NCBI GenBank assembly: GCA_947496065.1
Contig: CANMBF010000003.1
Span: 62,001-126,000 of the forward strand
Reading direction: 5' to 3'
Length of the DNA: 64,000 bases
DNA from: Bacteroidota bacterium
Lineage (GTDB): Bacteria; Bacteroidota; Bacteroidia; NS11-12g; UBA955
Position 1 is the first letter of the stretch; every line of letters begins with the position of its first letter. The position numbers were made by a program, and so were the translations under genes. The notes under the pieces were generated by a model. It did not search any database, was not told the origin of the DNA, and saw only the letters and a list, made by a program, of their open reading frames with translations. Shown one piece after another: positions 2,266-45,711 of this stretch.

Positions 2266-3033
2266 TTATTTTATTTCAAATAAATCTTGCTCATTCAAAA
2301 ATGGAAAGTCGTTTCTGAATAGAATAAGCGATTCCTTATTTAAATTGAATTGAAAAATATTGTCATCCTTGTCGAAGCCAATTTCTTCGCCTACATAATT
2401 AACAATGGCCGAACCACCTTTGTGTGGAATGCCATTGCCATCTTCTCCTAGTCTATTGCACGCAATTACATAACTTTGATTTTCGATGGCACGGGCTTTT
2501 AATAATTGCTGCCAAGCATAGTGTCTTTTCTCGGGCCAATTGGCGACATAGATTAATAAATCGTAGTTCACATTGTTGCGACTAAAAACAGGGAACCTTA
2601 GGTCGAAACAAATTAATGGACATATTTTCCATCCCATATAATCAACAATTAATCTCTCATGTCCGCGCGTGTAGTGTTGATTTTCTTCTGCTAAAGAAAA
2701 TAGGTGGCGTTTGTTATAGCGTTGATAGGTGCCATCGGGTAATACAAATAACAAACTGTTATAATAAGTGCCATTGTCTTCAAACATTAAGCTACCAGTT
2801 ACAGCTCCATTCTTACTTTTAGCGATGGCTTGCATCCAAGCCAATCCTTTTTCAGCGGATTCTTTGGCCAGTTTCTCCGGTTGCATACTAAAGCCAGTGG
2901 TAAACATTTCTGGCAATATGATTAAATCTGTTTGCTCAATGGGTGCTAGTTTTTTAGTAAAATGTTCTAGATTAAGTTCTATGTTTTCCCAATGCAATGT
3001 GGTTTGCACCACCGTAATATTTATAGTTTGCAT
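2266..3033 (-). CDS. Omega-amidase, carbon-nitrogen hydrolase family (YafV/Nit2-like)
   Basis: A 255-residue nitrilase-superfamily amidase. The Glu-Lys-Cys triad is visible as E42 in LPEMFTTGFS, K108 in YNKRH and C142 in PLICFDLRFP. YafV and Nit2 hydrolyse 2-oxoglutaramate and 2-oxosuccinamate, the products of glutamine or asparagine transamination. The gene lies directly downstream of a KAT/YbdL-type aminotransferase; its ATG overlaps the ancestral end of that gene (ATG at 3033-3031, ancestral stop at 3023-3021). This supports translational coupling and a joint glutaminase II or methionine-salvage role. Length and motif spacing are normal, and the gene looks intact even though its upstream partner does not. 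Confidence 0.9.
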   Translation of the reverse strand: MQTINITVVQTTLHWENIELNLEHFTKKLAPIEQTDLIILPEMFTTGFSMQPEKLAKESAEKGLAWMQAIAKSKNGAVTGSLMFEDNGTYYNSLLFVLPDGTYQRYNKRHLFSLAEENQHYTRGHERLIVDYMGWKICPLICFDLRFPVFSRNNVNYDLLIYVANWPEKRHYAWQQLLKARAIENQSYVIACNRLGEDGNGIPHKGGSAIVNYVGEEIGFDKDDNIFQFNLNKESLILFRNDFPFLNEQDLFEIK

Positions 3034-4175
3034 AATATCTCTGCTGCTTTAGAAAGTGTGTCTTCCGATTTGGCAAAACAAAACCGCAATACTTTATGGT
3101 CGGTTTTTCTTTTATAAAAAGCGGAGATAGGAATGCTCGCAATACCTTTTTCTATGGTTAAATATTTGGACATTTCAGTGTCACTCAATTCACTTAATTT
3201 ATCTTAACCTAACAATTGGAAATAACTGCCATTGCAGGCATATTGTTTAAAATTAGAACCTTTAATGGCTTGTTTAAAGAAGTCGCGTTTGGCTTGATAA
3301 AAACTGGCTAATTCTAAAAACATGTCGGGTCGGTCCAATATTTCGGCATAGGCATGTTGAATAGGCGTGTTTGCAGCAAAGGCCATAAATTGATAGACTT
3401 TGCGAATCATGGCTGTAATATTTGCAGGCGCAAGCACATAACCCATTTTCCATCCAGTGGTATGGTAGGTTTTACCAAAAGAACTTACAATAATGCATCT
3501 GTTGGCTAATTTTGGATAACGGGCAACTGACTGGTGTTCGAAACCATCAAAGATAATATGCTCATATACTTCATCGCTTAATATGAGTGTGTCGGTGTTT
3601 TCAACAAGCTTTTCTAATTTACGGATGTCCTCCGAGCTAAGTATCGTGCCGGTTGGGTTATGCGGACTATTAATAATGATGAGACGTGTTTTGAAATTGA
3701 TGAGCTTTTTTAATTGATTCCAATCTATTTTGTAATCAGGAAACGCCATTTCGTAAACAATGGCTTTACCTCCTGCAAGCTCTACCGCTGGTATATAGCA
3801 ATCATAAGCAGGTTCAATGATAATCACCTCATCATTATCCTTAATAAGTGCTGTAATAGCGGCATAGATGGCAAGGGTGGCACCAGGCATCACGGTAATT
3901 TCTGTTTCTGGATTGTAAACCGCCGAATAAGATTGTTCCGTTTTAATGGCAATCTTTTCTCTTAGGGACATGATTCCAGGCATTGGAGCATATTGGTTGT
4001 AGCCTTTTTCCATGGCCTTGGTTACCATGTTTTTTAAATCAGCACTACAATCAAAGTTTGGAAACCCCTGTGCTAAGTTAATAGCCCCATGGGCATTGGC
4101 CATAGCAGACATTACCGAAAAAATAGAAGGGCCTATTTGTGGTAATTTGTTATTTAAACTTCCTTCAAAATTCAC
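3021..4175 (-). pseudogene. Methionine/glutamine aminotransferase (YbdL/KAT-like) with in-frame stop
   Basis: A fold-type I PLP aminotransferase. Visible sites are N173 in PHNPTG, D201 and Y204 in DEVYEH and the PLP lysine K235 in SSFGKTYHTTGWKMGY. The frame is cut by TAA at 3206-3204 after residue 323. The same frame then continues for 60 codons with family-typical sequence (DTEMSKYLTIEKGIASIP, then VLRFCFAK, which holds the conserved substrate-carboxylate Arg) to a TAA at 3023-3021. The total of 384 codons matches the usual family length. So one base change, probably in a sense codon such as TAT or TAC, interrupts an otherwise intact gene. GTG at 4175 is the only start before the conserved KLPQIGPSIFSVMS segment. 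The truncated product would lack the carboxylate-binding Arg. Confidence 0.85.
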
Positions 4176-9455: not shown

Positions 9456-9857
9456 TTATAACGAAGCTTGCATATTATTTTGCAATAACATCAAACACCA
9501 AATAAAGAAAGCCAAGGCAACTAGAAGGGCTGCAATGATAATGCCTTTGTATTCAACAAACCATTTAAGCTTGTGCTCAACAGTGGGTGCAGATATTTCG
9601 GCATGGTAGTTTTTTAAGGCGGTATAGTCTTCCGCATTTAAATAGTCACCTTCTTTAAGAATTTCTATTGCTTCGGGAATATCCGCTTCAAGTACTTGTA
9701 ATTGAACGCCACCAATGGCATTTGAATAGAGTGAGGCAATCTGAGAAAAATTTTCATTTTTGATAAAACATTGAATGCCTTCCGATTCTAATCGGCCTTT
9801 TAAAACAGCCAATTCATAGGCATAGGTAAACGTTTTGATGGTGATGAATTTTTGCAT
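9456..9857 (-). CDS. DUF2007-like protein with C-terminal membrane helix
   Basis: A 133-residue protein. The first 70 residues fit the DUF2007 (putative signal-transducing) fold: a beta-alpha-beta unit with the ELAVLKGRLESEGI motif, then FIKNENF and a GGVQLQVLEADIPEAIEIL ending. Residues about 104-124 are a single hydrophobic helix, followed by a short tail. DUF2007 resembles ferredoxin-like ligand-binding modules; no function is established here. It lies 62 bases upstream of the Asp-box gene on the same strand. Confidence 0.72.
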   Translation of the reverse strand: MQKFITIKTFTYAYELAVLKGRLESEGIQCFIKNENFSQIASLYSNAIGGVQLQVLEADIPEAIEILKEGDYLNAEDYTALKNYHAEISAPTVEHKLKWFVEYKGIIIAALLVALAFFIWCLMLLQNNMQASL

Positions 9858-29929: not shown

Positions 29930-31084
29930 TTATTCTTCTGCTGTGTTTTTTAATGTCATTAATAAATTATAGGCACCTTCTGTTACAATTTTTTTTGAGG
30001 GCGAAATATCGGTAATTATTTCAATCCATCCATTCTCTAAATTACCGACCTCAATTTCTATGATTTGAAATTGGCGATCGCTTATTGCTTCAAAAATATA
30101 CTCTTTGCCTTCGAACCTCACAACTGCAGCCTCTGGTAATACATTGGCAATATTGTTTTTTATCGCTATCTCGGCGTTCATATACATGCCCGGGATGAGT
30201 GTTTTGTCATAATTATCAAAATGACAATGCACCTCGGCGCTGCCATTTTGATTTAAGTCTTTGCTAATAAGCAATATTTGACAATTGTGTCTAATGTCGT
30301 TATGAACATTGTTATAAGCAATTAGTTTTTGTCCAATAAATAATTTGTTAATGTCTTTTTCATAAATATTTAAATTGAGGTGAATATCGGATGGGTCTAC
30401 CAATTCAAACAAAACTTCGCTTGGATTAATGTACTTGCCAATATTGGCATTTACTTTTGAGGTAAAACCATTGATAGGAGAATAAATGCTAACACTTTTT
30501 GAAATGGTATTTTCATTTAAATAATCAGGGTTAATACCAATGAGTTTCAATTTTTCAGTCAGTGATTTAATGGTTATTTTTTGGGTTAAATAAGTGGCCT
30601 TCGTTTGCTCAAATACTCTATCACTTGTTGCCTTATTTTTATTCAATTCTAATTGTCTTAAATATTCATTTTCAATCGAAGAGAATTGTGCCTTCGCAAT
30701 TAGCAAGTCCTGCTGTAGTTGAATGTATTGTTGGTCTTCGATTGTAGCTATTATTTCACCTTTTGAAACATGCATACCGGGGAGCAAATTGGTTGCCTTT
30801 AAATAGCCGCCCATGGGTACACTGATGGATACCATGTTTTGAGGTGGTACATCAATTTTGCCATTCACTTTTAGAGTAGATGAAACTTGTTTTTGTTCAA
30901 CTTTGCCAATTGTAATACCTGCATTTTTGAATTGCGCTGCTGTTAAATTAATTTCCGTTGGCGTTGTCTCATCCGTTTGGGTTTCAGGCGCTTTTTTATT
31001 GTTACAAGCTCCCATAATCAAAAGAAAAATAATGGAAGTGTTTTTTAAAGCAGTATGTTGGATTATATTTTGAATTAAATTCAT
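29930..31084 (-). CDS. RND efflux periplasmic adaptor (CzcB/CusB-like)
   Basis: A 384-residue HlyD-type membrane fusion protein, predicted lipoprotein (lipobox IMGAC, Cys27). Beta-barrel and lipoyl halves flank a coiled coil: PQNMVSISVPMGGYL near 80-95, SKGEIIATIEDQQYIQLQQDLL near 105-126, the helical hairpin to about 190, then SPINGFTSKVNANIGKYI. It would bridge the inner-membrane pump and the TolC channel. Unusually it is placed after the CDF gene (overlap of four bases) and not next to the pump, but it belongs to the same transcript. Confidence 0.9.
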   Translation of the reverse strand: MNLIQNIIQHTALKNTSIIFLLIMGACNNKKAPETQTDETTPTEINLTAAQFKNAGITIGKVEQKQVSSTLKVNGKIDVPPQNMVSISVPMGGYLKATNLLPGMHVSKGEIIATIEDQQYIQLQQDLLIAKAQFSSIENEYLRQLELNKNKATSDRVFEQTKATYLTQKITIKSLTEKLKLIGINPDYLNENTISKSVSIYSPINGFTSKVNANIGKYINPSEVLFELVDPSDIHLNLNIYEKDINKLFIGQKLIAYNNVHNDIRHNCQILLISKDLNQNGSAEVHCHFDNYDKTLIPGMYMNAEIAIKNNIANVLPEAAVVRFEGKEYIFEAISDRQFQIIEIEVGNLENGWIEIITDISPSKKIVTEGAYNLLMTLKNTAEE

Positions 31085-32073
31085 TGGTTTAAGCTGTGTT
31101 TGTTATTTGATAATATGTTCTCATTCGTCCATTGAACATGTTGTATAAAATTAGTTTTGCGTTGAGTGCAATTGTTGATATTACATAGGTTGCATTGGTG
31201 TGGCATACATCCATCAATGTGCACAAAGAACTCAACGCGCTCCTTGAAATGTTTGGTTAATAAATGCGTTAGGCGATCGAGTAGCTGATGGGCTTCATTC
31301 ACATTAATGTAAAATGGAACGGTTAAATGACAATCAATATGGTAAAAACCGGCATAATTGATCACACGCATGTTGTGGACATCAATCCATTCAACCTCTC
31401 GGTGCTCATTTAACACTTTTATGATGTCATCAATAATTTCATTATCAGTTTCATCCATAATACCCGCCACCGATCGTCGAATGATTTTATAGCCAGTGAA
31501 AATAATGATGAATGCAAACACTAAGGCCGCTGCGCTATCAATCCATTTTTCGCCAGTTATTAAGATTAAGAGAATCCCAATTAATAGACCTAGGGTTGAA
31601 TAAGTGTCGGATTTTAAATGACTGCCGCTGGCCACCAATATGGGGGAGTTTTCTTTCTTACCTTTATTAATACATATTTGTCCAACGATGTAATTTACCA
31701 CTGCAGTAATAGCAATTAAGATAATTCCATAATCAAGTTTCTTTATATCATGTGGGTGTACAAGATTATTAATGGCCTCATAGATAATAATTAAACCGGC
31801 AATACTAATTAGCACACCTTCAATTGCAGAAGATAAAAATTCTACTTTTCCATGGCCATATGGATGTTCTTTGTCTTTGGGTTTTGAAGATAAAATGATG
31901 CTATAAAGGCCTATAAAACCTGCCACTACATTGACAGTGCTTTCCATCGCATCTGTTAAGATCGCCACCGAAGAAGTGATTAGCCATGCGACTACTTTTA
32001 TTATAAATAGAAGTACAGAAACACTCACTAGTATTTTCTGCATGCGTATCGTGTTCACTTGTTGCTCAGACAT
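31081..32073 (-). CDS. Cation diffusion facilitator (CDF) transporter
   Basis: A 330-residue metal/proton antiporter. Six membrane helices lie within residues 10-220. TM2 has LTDAMESTVN and TM5 has HLKSDTYST, the site-A ligand region; HPYGHGKVE in the loop is also typical. A cytoplasmic ferredoxin-like domain (about 222-290, with HNMRVINYAGFYHIDCHL) follows. The C-terminus adds a Cys/His cluster (CMPHQCNLCNINNC), an uncommon extension that may bind metal. TM2 lacks the usual DxxxD pair, so specificity is uncertain; Zn, Co, Fe or Mn are all possible. It lies between TolC and the adaptor in the metal operon. Confidence 0.9.
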   Translation of the reverse strand: MSEQQVNTIRMQKILVSVSVLLFIIKVVAWLITSSVAILTDAMESTVNVVAGFIGLYSIILSSKPKDKEHPYGHGKVEFLSSAIEGVLISIAGLIIIYEAINNLVHPHDIKKLDYGIILIAITAVVNYIVGQICINKGKKENSPILVASGSHLKSDTYSTLGLLIGILLILITGEKWIDSAAALVFAFIIIFTGYKIIRRSVAGIMDETDNEIIDDIIKVLNEHREVEWIDVHNMRVINYAGFYHIDCHLTVPFYINVNEAHQLLDRLTHLLTKHFKERVEFFVHIDGCMPHQCNLCNINNCTQRKTNFIQHVQWTNENILSNNKHSLNQ

Positions 32074-32074
32074 T

Positions 32075-33301
32075 TTATTGCGCTAGATATTTCAAGTTTA
32101 AAATAGATTCATTTAGGTTTTTTACACTATTAATATAATCGTTCTGAATAGCGATGGCCTGGTTGGTTAACAATACAAATTCAATATAATTAATTTCGCC
32201 ATTTAATAGTTGGATTTTTGCACTGTTTAGAATGGTGCTTGCATTTTTAAGCGCAAGTGTTTAATAATAGTCAACCATTTGTGTGTTTTTAATATATTGT
32301 TTTTTTGCTTTAAAAACCTCATTTTTTATTTGATTTACAGCATTGTCGTAATTAGAATTAGCAATATTTTCATTGATTTTCGAGGCATTGATACTGGCTT
32401 TCTGTGAACCATAAAACAGTGGAATACCAATGCCAAATTGAAAGGATTGGAATCGCGTTTTAGTGTCATAGGAGCGACTGTCAGCGCCTTCGCCTTTCAT
32501 GCTCATGTTGCTATAGGAAATGCCTAGGTTGGGCAATAATTTAGATTGTTCTAAAGCGGTGTTCTTTTCAGCAATGAGTTTCTGTTGTTTTGAAATTAAG
32601 ACACTAGGATGCTGAAATAATTGACTTGAATCAGCATTAGTCGTATAATTCAATTTGAAACTTTTTTCTGAAGGGATGAAAACAGTAGTAGAATTTAATA
32701 AATATTGAAATTGAAATTGAACAATTTTAATATCAATTCTTAATTCATTCAGTTGATTTGTAATTTGTCCAGACTGCGTTTCTGCAGTTATTTTTTCTAA
32801 AATATTACTTTCCCCAATCTTGAAATTCAAATTTGATTTTGCCAAAAAGTCATTGTAAATACTATCTGTCTTCACTAATAGTTTTTCTTTTTCAAACAAA
32901 TAATAAAGTAGGTAATATAAATTTGAAACTTCTTTTATCAATTCCTTCTCTTTTAAGTTAGCTTGCGTTACACTACTTTGCCAAGTAGCTGTTAATAACG
33001 ATTTTTGCTTGCGATAGATAGTTGGAAAATTAATGCTTTGACCGATTCCAAAACGGGTGTCCGAATACCAACTGTTCAATTGTCCATATTCAAAGCCAAC
33101 GCTTGTTTGAGGAATATTGGCGTTGGTTTTAATGAGCATTCGCTGATAATCTGCTTTAAGTCTTTCGTTTCTTAACGACAGGTTGTTTTTGGTAGCTGAA
33201 TCAATTGCTGATTTTAATGAAATAGGAACTTGTCCATAAAAAATATTTACGGTTGCAAGGCTACAAATTAATAGTATGAATTTAAAATGCTGTTTCATCA
33301 T
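32075..33301 (-). pseudogene. TolC-family outer-membrane efflux channel with in-frame stop
   Basis: A 408-codon TolC/CzcC-like gene. Signal peptide (1-23, ending FYGQ), then the repeated helical hairpin layout of outer-membrane factors. TAA at 32263-32261 stops the frame after residue 346 (MVDYY). The same frame runs on for 61 codons (TLALKNASTILNSAKIQLLN, then GEINYIEFVLLTNQAI) to TAA at 32077-32075, one base before the CDF start. This tail is the normal second hairpin; the stop most likely replaced GAA (Glu). The start overlaps the RND pump gene by 20 bases. Without the tail the channel should not fold. Confidence 0.85.
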
Positions 33302-36300
33302 TTAAATTTGATTTAGATTGACCCATGTTTTCGAATAGGATGTATAATACTGGTAATACAAAAAGTGTAAGAAAGGTAGCAATCATAAGACCGCCAATTA
33401 CTACAGTGGCCAACGGTCGCTGCACTTCTGCGCCAGCACCATTGCTCAGGGCCATTGGCAGAAATCCAAGTGAAGCAACAAATGCAGTCATTAAGACAGG
33501 GCGTAGCCTCAGCTGTGTGCCTTTTAAGACGATGGCCTTTAGGTCGGTTAGACCGTGTTTTTTTAATTGATTAAATTCGGCTATTAGTACTATGCCATTT
33601 AATACAGCAACACCAAATAGGGCAATAAAACCAACACCAGCACTAATGCTAAATGGCATACCTCGCAAAGCTAAAAACAGGATGCCACCAATGGCCGAGA
33701 GTGGAATAGCAGAATAAATTAATAAGCCATGTTTAACCGAATTGAAAGCAAAATACAAAAGTACAAAAATCATTAAGAGCGAAACAGGAACCGCAATGGT
33801 GAGTCTTTTTTTAGCTGCTTCTAAATTTTCAAAAGCGCCCCCGTATGTAGGGTAATAGCCTGCCTGGAACTTAATTTTTTTACCAACTTTTTCTTGTAGT
33901 TCATTCACGATACTTTGTACATCTCGTCCGCGAATATTAAATCCAACAATGATTCTGCGTTTGGCATCTTCTCTTTGAATTTGGTTTGGTCCATCCAATA
34001 TTTCAACTTTTGCAAATTGCGAAAGGGGTATTTGATTGCCATTTGGTGTTGGAATTAATAAATTTTGAACATCAGTTAATTCATTTCTTTTTTCACCTGT
34101 TAGTCGCACCACCAAATCAAAACGTTTTTCACCTTCGAAGATTAAACCAGTACTTTGCCCGGCAAAAGCGGTATTTAAGATTCTATTGATGTCTGAAATG
34201 TTCATATTGTATTGCGCGATATTACTGCGGTTATAACTAATGTTAATTTGAGGCATGCCAGTAATGGGCTCAATGTAGACATCTTTAGCACCTTCAACAG
34301 TAGAAATTAAGGCGCCCATTTGTTCAGCATATAAAGCTAAGGTATCTAAATTCTCTCCAAATATTTTACAAACAACATCTTGTTTAGCCCCAGTCATTAA
34401 TTCATTAAAACGCATTTGAACTGGGTATTGAAATCCAAAGGTTACACCAGGCACAGCTTCTAATGCTTTGCTCATTTTTTCCGATAATTCATCAAAAGTT
34501 TTTGCATTGGTCCATTCTTTCTTGTCTTTTAGTATAATCATTAAATCTTGTGCATCAATTGGCATTGGATCAGTTGGTACTTCGCCACTCCCAATTTTGG
34601 CCACTATTTTTCGCACTTCTGGAAATTGTTTTAACAGTATGGCTGAAGCTTTTTGCGAAGCCGCGATACTTACATTTAAATTACTACCTGGTAATACCCT
34701 TGTTTCAACAGCAAAATCGCCTTCTTCTAGCGCTGGAATAAATTCGCCTCCCAAAGTGGTAAAAACAAATATTGAAATAATAAATAATCCAATGGTACTC
34801 GAAATGACTAGCTTTGGATAATTTAAAATTTTATTGAGTGATGCTTTGTAAGCTAGCTCAACCTTTTCCATCAATTTATCTGATAGATTTTTCTTTGTTT
34901 TCACTTTTTTACTTAAAAATAAAGCGCTCATCATTGGAATATAGGTGAGCGATAAGATAAACGCGCCAATGAGCGCGAATGCAACAGTTTGGGCCATTGG
35001 CTTAAACATTTTGCCTTCGATGCCTTGCAACGTAAAAATAGGAAGGTAAACAATTAAAATAATGACTTGTCCAAACACAGCACTGTTCATCATTTTAGAT
35101 GCTGAATATCTGACCTCATCATCCATCTGTTTCTGCTCGATTTTAACGGTTGATCCGAATTTTTTAGTGTCTGCCAATTGGTGCATAACAGCTTCAACAA
35201 TAATCACAGCGCCATCAACTATCAAGCCAAAATCAAGCGCTCCTAAACTCATCAAATTGCCACTAACGCCAAATAAGTTCATCATGATTATGGCAAACAA
35301 CATAGCGAGTGGAATAACAGATGCAACCAATAAGCCTGCTCTGAAATTACCTAAAAATAAGACCAAAATGAATACAACAATCAGTGCACCTTCCATCAAG
35401 TTTTTTTCGACCGTGCTAATGGCATTATCAACCATTTTGGTACGGTCTAAAAATGGTTCGATCAGCACGCCTTCTGGCAATGATGCTTGAATTTGGGCAA
35501 TCCTTAATTTCACATTTTTAATTACCTCCGAACTGTTGGCGCCTTTCAGCATCATCACCACAGCACCAGCTACCTCTCCCTTGTCATTATAGGTCATAGC
35601 GCCATAACGGGTGGCATGTCCAAGTTTTATTTCTGCGACATCGCGTATAAATATTGGATTGCCATTGTTGTTGCTTTTGATTGCTATATTTGAAATATCA
35701 TCTAGGTTGGTTAATAAGCCTTCTGATTTTATAAATAGAATGGTAGGTCCTTTTTCAATATAGGCGCCACCAGTGTTTTGATTGTTACTTTCAAGTGCTT
35801 TAAAGACATCGGCAATATTGATATTGAATGATTGTAATTTATTGGGGTCAATTTCTATGGTATATTGTTTTAATTTGCCTCCAAAGCTGCTAACCTCTGC
35901 AACGCCTTTTACACCGATGAGTTGTCGCCTAACGATCCAATCTTGAATTGTTCTTAAGTCCGTTTCATTGTATTTAGTTTCAAAGCCAGGTTTCGCACGC
36001 ACTACATATTGGTAAATTTCTCCGAGACCTGTAGTAACTGGTCCCAGTTCTGGGATGCCAATATCTTTTGGAATCAGCGTTTGTATTTTTTGAAGTTTTT
36101 CTGTTACTTGCTGTCTTGCCCAATAAACATCGGTCTCATCGTCGAACACAATGGTAACTAATGACAATCCAAATCGCGAGAAGCTTCTAATTTCTTTAAT
36201 GCCATGAATATTACTATTGGCCTGTTCAATTGGAAAAGTGACTAAACGCTCGATATCTGTGGCGCCATAGGAGGGTGCCACAGTAATTATTTGAACTTGG

Positions 36301-36434
36301 TTGTTCGTAATATCAGGCACAGCGTCAATTGGTAGTTTGGTCACTTGATAGATGCCATAACCAATTAAGCCTACTGTAAATAGCAGAATTATTAATTTAT
36401 TTTTTATTGAAAATGCTATTGTTTTTGTCAGCAT
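33282..36434 (-). CDS. Heavy-metal RND efflux pump (CzcA-type)
   Basis: A 1050-residue inner-membrane proton-driven exporter with twelve helices and two large periplasmic loops. The N-terminus (IEQVTKLPIDAVPDITNNQVQI-like) is diagnostic of the HME-RND group. TM4 carries DFGLIVDGAVIIVE near residue 400, the D...D...E pattern of divalent-cation pumps (Zn/Co/Cd/Ni), not the methionine-based monovalent copper/silver type. The PSYGATDIERLVTFPIE and LLYFAFNSVKHGLLIY regions are typical. It is the second gene of the metal operon and overlaps the TolC gene. Confidence 0.93.
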   Translation of the reverse strand: MLTKTIAFSIKNKLIILLFTVGLIGYGIYQVTKLPIDAVPDITNNQVQIITVAPSYGATDIERLVTFPIEQANSNIHGIKEIRSFSRFGLSLVTIVFDDETDVYWARQQVTEKLQKIQTLIPKDIGIPELGPVTTGLGEIYQYVVRAKPGFETKYNETDLRTIQDWIVRRQLIGVKGVAEVSSFGGKLKQYTIEIDPNKLQSFNINIADVFKALESNNQNTGGAYIEKGPTILFIKSEGLLTNLDDISNIAIKSNNNGNPIFIRDVAEIKLGHATRYGAMTYNDKGEVAGAVVMMLKGANSSEVIKNVKLRIAQIQASLPEGVLIEPFLDRTKMVDNAISTVEKNLMEGALIVVFILVLFLGNFRAGLLVASVIPLAMLFAIIMMNLFGVSGNLMSLGALDFGLIVDGAVIIVEAVMHQLADTKKFGSTVKIEQKQMDDEVRYSASKMMNSAVFGQVIILIVYLPIFTLQGIEGKMFKPMAQTVAFALIGAFILSLTYIPMMSALFLSKKVKTKKNLSDKLMEKVELAYKASLNKILNYPKLVISSTIGLFIISIFVFTTLGGEFIPALEEGDFAVETRVLPGSNLNVSIAASQKASAILLKQFPEVRKIVAKIGSGEVPTDPMPIDAQDLMIILKDKKEWTNAKTFDELSEKMSKALEAVPGVTFGFQYPVQMRFNELMTGAKQDVVCKIFGENLDTLALYAEQMGALISTVEGAKDVYIEPITGMPQINISYNRSNIAQYNMNISDINRILNTAFAGQSTGLIFEGEKRFDLVVRLTGEKRNELTDVQNLLIPTPNGNQIPLSQFAKVEILDGPNQIQREDAKRRIIVGFNIRGRDVQSIVNELQEKVGKKIKFQAGYYPTYGGAFENLEAAKKRLTIAVPVSLLMIFVLLYFAFNSVKHGLLIYSAIPLSAIGGILFLALRGMPFSISAGVGFIALFGVAVLNGIVLIAEFNQLKKHGLTDLKAIVLKGTQLRLRPVLMTAFVASLGFLPMALSNGAGAEVQRPLATVVIGGLMIATFLTLFVLPVLYILFENMGQSKSNLNDETAF

Positions 36435-44496: not shown

Positions 44497-45711
44497 CTAT
44501 CTTTTGATAAATTTAGCAGATGATAAGCTGCCATCATTGTTTAAAATATTTAAGAAATAAATACCATTTTCTAAATGTCTAATATCAAATTGAACATTTG
44601 CGCCATTGATATTTGTTGGTGTTATTAATACAACTGCCTTTCCATTTGCATCTAATATGCTAATGGCTGATTCTATTACTGCTGTTTCGTTTAAGCTAAC
44701 ATTTAAGAAATCTGAAGTTGGATTTGGGTATACGCTAACGGCAGCATCAACATTGTTCAATTTTACTTGCGCAATGTTGCTGAATCGATAGTCGCCATTC
44801 TCGTCAACCATTCTCAATTGGTAATATACGGTTGCAACCTTGATGTTTGAAAAATTCAAATCAGTAAAGTGATAAGCAATTATTTCATTTCTATTGCCTA
44901 TTGCATGAACACTTCCAATTGAAGTATAGTTTTTACCATCTATTGAACGTGTTACATCAAATTGGTTTAAATTCTCTTCTGATGAAGTTGACCAGCTGAT
45001 TTCAGCATTGTTGTTATCAACTATAGCTTCGAAGTAATTTAATGTTACTGGCAATGGCACAACCATGGCAGTAAATGCTTTAAAGTAGAAAGAAGCTTGT
45101 CGTGTAGAGTTTGCCGTTACAATACCAATCGTGCCAACTCTCATTCTGAAGGAAGTAATGTTGGTGTAATTAATTTGCGCCATGGCAGCATAGTTACTTG
45201 TATCAATATTGTTAAACTGAGCGGTTCCACTTTTGAAGTAAAACCAGCTGGCATCCTAACTAGTCGTAATAGTTGAGTTTTTAATTAATTTAGTAGTAGC
45301 TGGCATCGAAGCTCTAATAAATTCTCTGAAGGTATTGCTATTGCCTGGGCCATCACAATCAACAATGGTCATTGCAACTGAACTTTGAACCTCAGCGGCT
45401 TTACTTGAACTATTAATAAAGTCTATTTTGAATTCTACATAACTACTGTCGTTTGCACCCGAAGTAGCATTTGAATATCTGATATTAGGCTGCCAAGCAT
45501 ATTTATAGACAGAGGAATCATCCATAACGTCGACAGTTGCATTTTTCGAAGCGGTCACTGTAACGATGGCGTTAATGCCAGGGGCAACACTTAAAAATGT
45601 GTAAGTAGAACCCGATTTGGACGGGTTGCTGAAATGATAAGTTTTTTGGGTTTGTGAAATAGCAATGTTGCATATAGCAAACAAAGCCACGAGATTAAAA
45701 ATTCGTTTCAT
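44497..45711 (-). pseudogene. T9SS cargo gene with in-frame stop
   Basis: A 404-codon gene split by TAG at 45258-45256. The N-terminal part has a signal peptide (ending AISQ) and a beta domain (151 residues). After the stop the same frame continues without a break: 24 codons (DASWFYFKSGTAQFNNIDTS and on) lead into the second part, which holds an adhesin-type sandwich (LPVTLNYFEAIV) and a type A T9SS tail (VYPNPTSDFLNV, LENGIYFLNI). The downstream part alone has no signal peptide, so the two parts were one gene. The truncated product would lack the sorting tail and stay in the periplasm. Confidence 0.8.

Follow-up and report, generated by a model that had tools for sequence, protein, structure and literature searches.

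What is to be made of a gene that appears intact except for one stop codon: is the stop a real mutation, a codon that is decoded, the natural end of a shorter enzyme, or an error? This question is raised by an aminotransferase gene within the window, the 64,000-nucleotide stretch of Bacteroidota DNA analysed here. Translation of window:3021-4175:- gives 323 residues, a TAA, 60 further residues, and a terminal TAA. The original prediction had described a 384-codon frame, otherwise intact but split by a single base change to TAA at 3206-3204; the translation bears out these coordinates, the frame, the stop, and the total length, and changing a single base of a Tyr codon is sufficient to explain the split.

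A YbdL-type aminotransferase and its amidase neighbour

The frame from 4175 to 3021 (-) is assigned by the NCBIfam profile NF006569/PRK09082 (cut-off, 420 bits) to the YbdL/KAT-type methionine/glutamine aminotransferases. Codons 1-323 (3207-4175, minus strand) start with a GTG at 4175, which is common to all 12 full-length same-genus copies. This portion matches profile positions 7-324 (469 bits, E 9.7e-141) as well as PF00155 (E 6.5e-50), and it includes the PLP lysine motif SSFGKTYHTTGWK with Lys235. The premature, in-frame TAA at codon 324 (3204-3206, minus strand) is followed by the severed 60 codons and the original stop (3021-3203, minus strand). As had been predicted, the 60 codons correspond to the family C-terminus, matching profile positions 328-386 (71 bits, E 8.7e-20). 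Both pieces match consecutive stretches of one profile, so that together they give a full-length PRK09082 match. The severed portion contains the sequence VLRFCFAK with Arg364, which, judged by the YbdL alignment, is the counterpart of an Arg conserved in class I enzymes, where it binds the alpha-carboxylate of the substrate (PMC9309667). Lys235 and Arg364 therefore lie on opposite sides of the TAA rather than within one open frame.

The likeness to E. coli YbdL (PRK09082, PDB 1u08) consists of the profile match over both halves, the length, and an alignment to the solved structure through the intact nearest relative. This alignment is collinear across the junction and has Tyr at the position of the stop. 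Unlike a YbdL-type methionine aminotransferase, however, the copy in the window has a stop at codon 324, and its activity and substrate range are predicted ones. Glutamine transaminase K/kynurenine aminotransferase belongs to the same fold family, and the KAT structures 1w7l, 1yiy, and 2zjg also match. Within the genome there is no second orthologous aminotransferase that could serve as a backup; the closest other aminotransferase shares 34% identity with it.

Immediately downstream lies an omega-amidase/YafV-type carbon-nitrogen hydrolase gene (2266-3033, minus strand), which is intact, as the original prediction had stated (NF007757/PRK10438, E 2.3e-80, over the cut-off; PF00795). The last 13 bp of the aminotransferase frame are shared with the start of the amidase gene, ATG included; of 28 relatives measured, 24 have kept an overlap of 10 or 13 bp. 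The early TAA lies 170 nt upstream of the amidase ATG. This conserved adjacency with a PRK10438-type amidase, like the shared fold family, resembles the glutaminase II pathway, which pairs a transaminase with an omega-amidase.

Relatives and selection beyond the stop

A search of 58 related genomes gave close matches that are all stop-free, and the frame is open in 12/12 same-genus genomes with a full-length copy. Thus, the gene is interrupted in the window genome and open in its relatives, the pattern of a recent pseudogene. Across 28 aligned relatives, 27 have Tyr and one has Phe in the stop column (codons TAT, TAC, or TTC); the 80 genome_contigs loci, which partly overlap the 58-genome/28-genome set, divide into 78 with Tyr and two with Phe. 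No stop and no truncation is present at the codon 324 position in any of these 28 genomes or 80 loci, and the idea that homologues truly end at the TAA is rejected. The two nearest relatives have protein identities of 96% and 95% and DNA identities of 87% and 86%. The two nearest named records are both metagenome-assembled genomes of uncultured Bacteroidetes.

In comparison with the nearest relative, dN/dS is 0.026 before the stop and 0.022 after it; relative to the second, the values are 0.023 and 0.038. Within the 60-codon continuation, 20 synonymous and 3 nonsynonymous changes separate the window copy from its nearest relative. Since the continuation matches the family C-terminus and has been selected in this way, it is not a chance open frame. 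Own-branch values, which were computed from three pairwise distances, give a dS of ~0.66 and ~16 nonsynonymous changes for the window lineage, versus 13.9 expected at the dN/dS of the relatives. Consequently, at most ~1.7% of this branch, counted from the nearest relatives sampled, could have been free of constraint (95% upper bound). Given the strong selection both before and after the stop, any inactivation dates to the last ~2% of the branch or less. This agrees with the claim that the loss, if the stop is real, is very recent; the TAA is either an artefact or young compared with the divergence of species.

What has been observed directly is the splitting of the gene, the conservation of its frame, its intactness in relatives, and the absence of decay. 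As for relaxed selection after the interruption, dN/dS is unchanged and the changes are few in total, but two of them, D40N and A336S, fall at near-invariant columns. Changes of this kind are present neither in the five nearest relatives nor in the adjacent amidase of the window genome, weakly suggesting a brief relaxation that may have been confined to the aminotransferase gene.

These results also bear on whether the 323-residue product might be a functional, shorter transaminase. The PLP-binding core with Lys235 does precede the stop. However, no relative in either set ends at this position, the class I Arg for the substrate carboxylate falls after the stop (family knowledge; PMC9309667), and the downstream codons have been selected like the rest of the gene. 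A shorter enzyme is therefore scarcely credible, the least likely of the explanations considered.

Mutation or miscall

A comparison of sister open frames with the window detects two further single-stop splits. One affects an outer membrane efflux (OEP/TolC-like) gene (32075-33301, minus strand), located in an RND/CusB-like/cation-efflux cluster (29930-36434): a TAA at 32263-32261 takes the place of a codon that is Glu in relatives, with 61 codons beyond it. A gene for a protein with a Por secretion C-terminal sorting domain (44497-45711, minus strand) contains one TAG at 45258-45256, followed by 252 codons; the nearest relative having that region encodes Ser at this position. Neither gene has clear decay after its stop. 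The matching genes of three sister assemblies are free of such splits, and frameshift-type splits are not seen in the window.

In a coding-score scan of the genome, in which the genome-wide rates cover ~434 kb, the three window splits rank among the strongest candidates, and the ~370 kb outside the window contains no equally convincing one. On visual inspection, we took the leftover entries of the scan for neighbouring genes that share a frame or for short frames of doubtful status. One of them, around 14620 of L181 (minus strand) elsewhere in the same genome, could be a small real split, in which a TAA separates stretches of 97 and 47 codons. The other apparent in-frame stops from the comparison with sister open frames were mostly due to antisense shadow frames, or fell within or close to 5' extensions that precede start codons. 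In addition, at 9456-9857 of the window (minus strand) codon 132 is TCG, versus a terminal TAG in three relatives, giving a slightly longer protein here.

Could the TAA instead be decoded, through recoding, a suppressor tRNA, or programmed readthrough, so that the full-length enzyme is made? Purifying selection that persists beyond the stop would fit this idea, but recency of the stop explains the continued selection equally well. Furthermore, no relative has a stop at column 324, and ordinary genes throughout terminate at TAA or TAG. The three splits replace Tyr with TAA, Glu with TAA, and Ser with TAG; a change in the code would put one particular stop codon, across several genes, where relatives encode one particular residue, and since the residues differ, the code has not been reassigned. 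Decoding of the TAA is, on these grounds, highly improbable.

An error of base calling, assembly, or consensus is a more serious alternative. In this case the gene would be intact, and the TAA would be an artefact or a rare strain variant captured in the contig. Low-coverage assemblies commonly contain spurious internal stops, and a published survey shows that those in draft assemblies are often miscalls; in short-read assemblies internal stops track base miscalls (PMC11017572). Young bacterial pseudogenes and pseudogenes created by assembly error share the features seen here, one internal stop in a gene that is otherwise intact and conserved (PMC11017572). An error would account for the absence of decay anywhere in the aminotransferase frame and for the two other undecayed, single-stop splits nearby; three such splits are many for one 64 kb region when the sister assemblies have none. 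On the other hand, a pervasively error-ridden assembly is argued against by the lack of comparable splits in the ~370 kb elsewhere, and the splits in the window do not include the frameshift type.

The substitution patterns point in both directions. Window genes were aligned to those of genomes G006, G011, and G004 for changes specific to the window lineage. Its nonsynonymous changes comprise 41 transversions and 16 transitions, versus 19 and 24 in two sisters (Fisher p 0.007, a value that is one of several comparisons and is to be read cautiously). This excess is as expected of random miscalls, although the changes could possibly be young, unselected variants instead. The overall substitution spectrum of the lineage, however, resembles that of the sisters, and the nonsynonymous/synonymous singletons (57/616) are close to theirs (23/280 and 20/300), both of which speak against an error. 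A mutator, under which the stops at the Tyr and Glu codons would be G:C to T:A changes, was also considered and rejected: there is no excess of such changes (5.8% versus 6.1% and 4.1%), and mutY is full length and above the cut-off in the window genome.

The evidence does not decide between a real allele and an error. We lean to the former, and regard it as somewhat probable that a nonsense mutation has very recently arisen in a conserved transaminase-amidase operon, with an error as the less probable but substantial alternative. That the frame has a single stop without any frameshift, and is open in every full-length copy of the genus, argues for a real allele. So does the dispensability of the gene in the order: the transaminase is missing from 7/7 g15 genomes sampled and from several others, some lacking the transaminase-amidase pair and some the transaminase alone. 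As part of this best explanation, we infer that the base is real, in an allele that may be fixed or may be one variant in a population. If all three undecayed splits in the 64 kb were real, they would mark an abrupt and still continuing wave of gene inactivation in a freshwater-type Bacteroidota lineage, which we consider very unlikely.

Predicted consequences of the interruption

If the nonsense mutation is real, one base change would have converted the Tyr codon at position 324 to TAA, and translation would halt 61 residues short. The 323-residue product would keep the PLP Lys235 but lack the end of the small domain, where the predicted carboxylate-binding Arg364 lies. Such a product would be expected to lack activity or stability. 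The normal place of the amidase ATG is within the last transaminase codons, so the early stop may also lower amidase translation, and lost translational coupling could thereby reduce amidase output.

KAT/YbdL-type transaminases and omega-amidases work in tandem to drive keto acid amination with glutamine (PMC6302742, PMC9309667). In the classical methionine salvage cycle a further enzyme is acireductone dioxygenase (PF03079), which was not found in the window genome or in five same-genus genomes (six genomes tested); closing this cycle is therefore an unlikely role for the transaminase here. In an E. coli glutamate auxotroph, deletion of ybdL leaves growth unchanged with methionine, histidine, or phenylalanine as the amine donor (PMC9436414). 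Given these two observations and the absence of the gene from members of the order, the metabolic effect of losing the transaminase would probably be mild. The original prediction, which expected the loss to disable glutaminase II/methionine-transamination chemistry, is supported in part.

The gene is best recorded as an interrupted aminotransferase, with the stop flagged with caution. Whether it is a recent knock-out or a sequencing error, the case is biologically ordinary and has little significance beyond annotation. It does serve as an example of how selection past a stop bounds the age of a pseudogene but does not distinguish a genuine young allele from a miscalled base.
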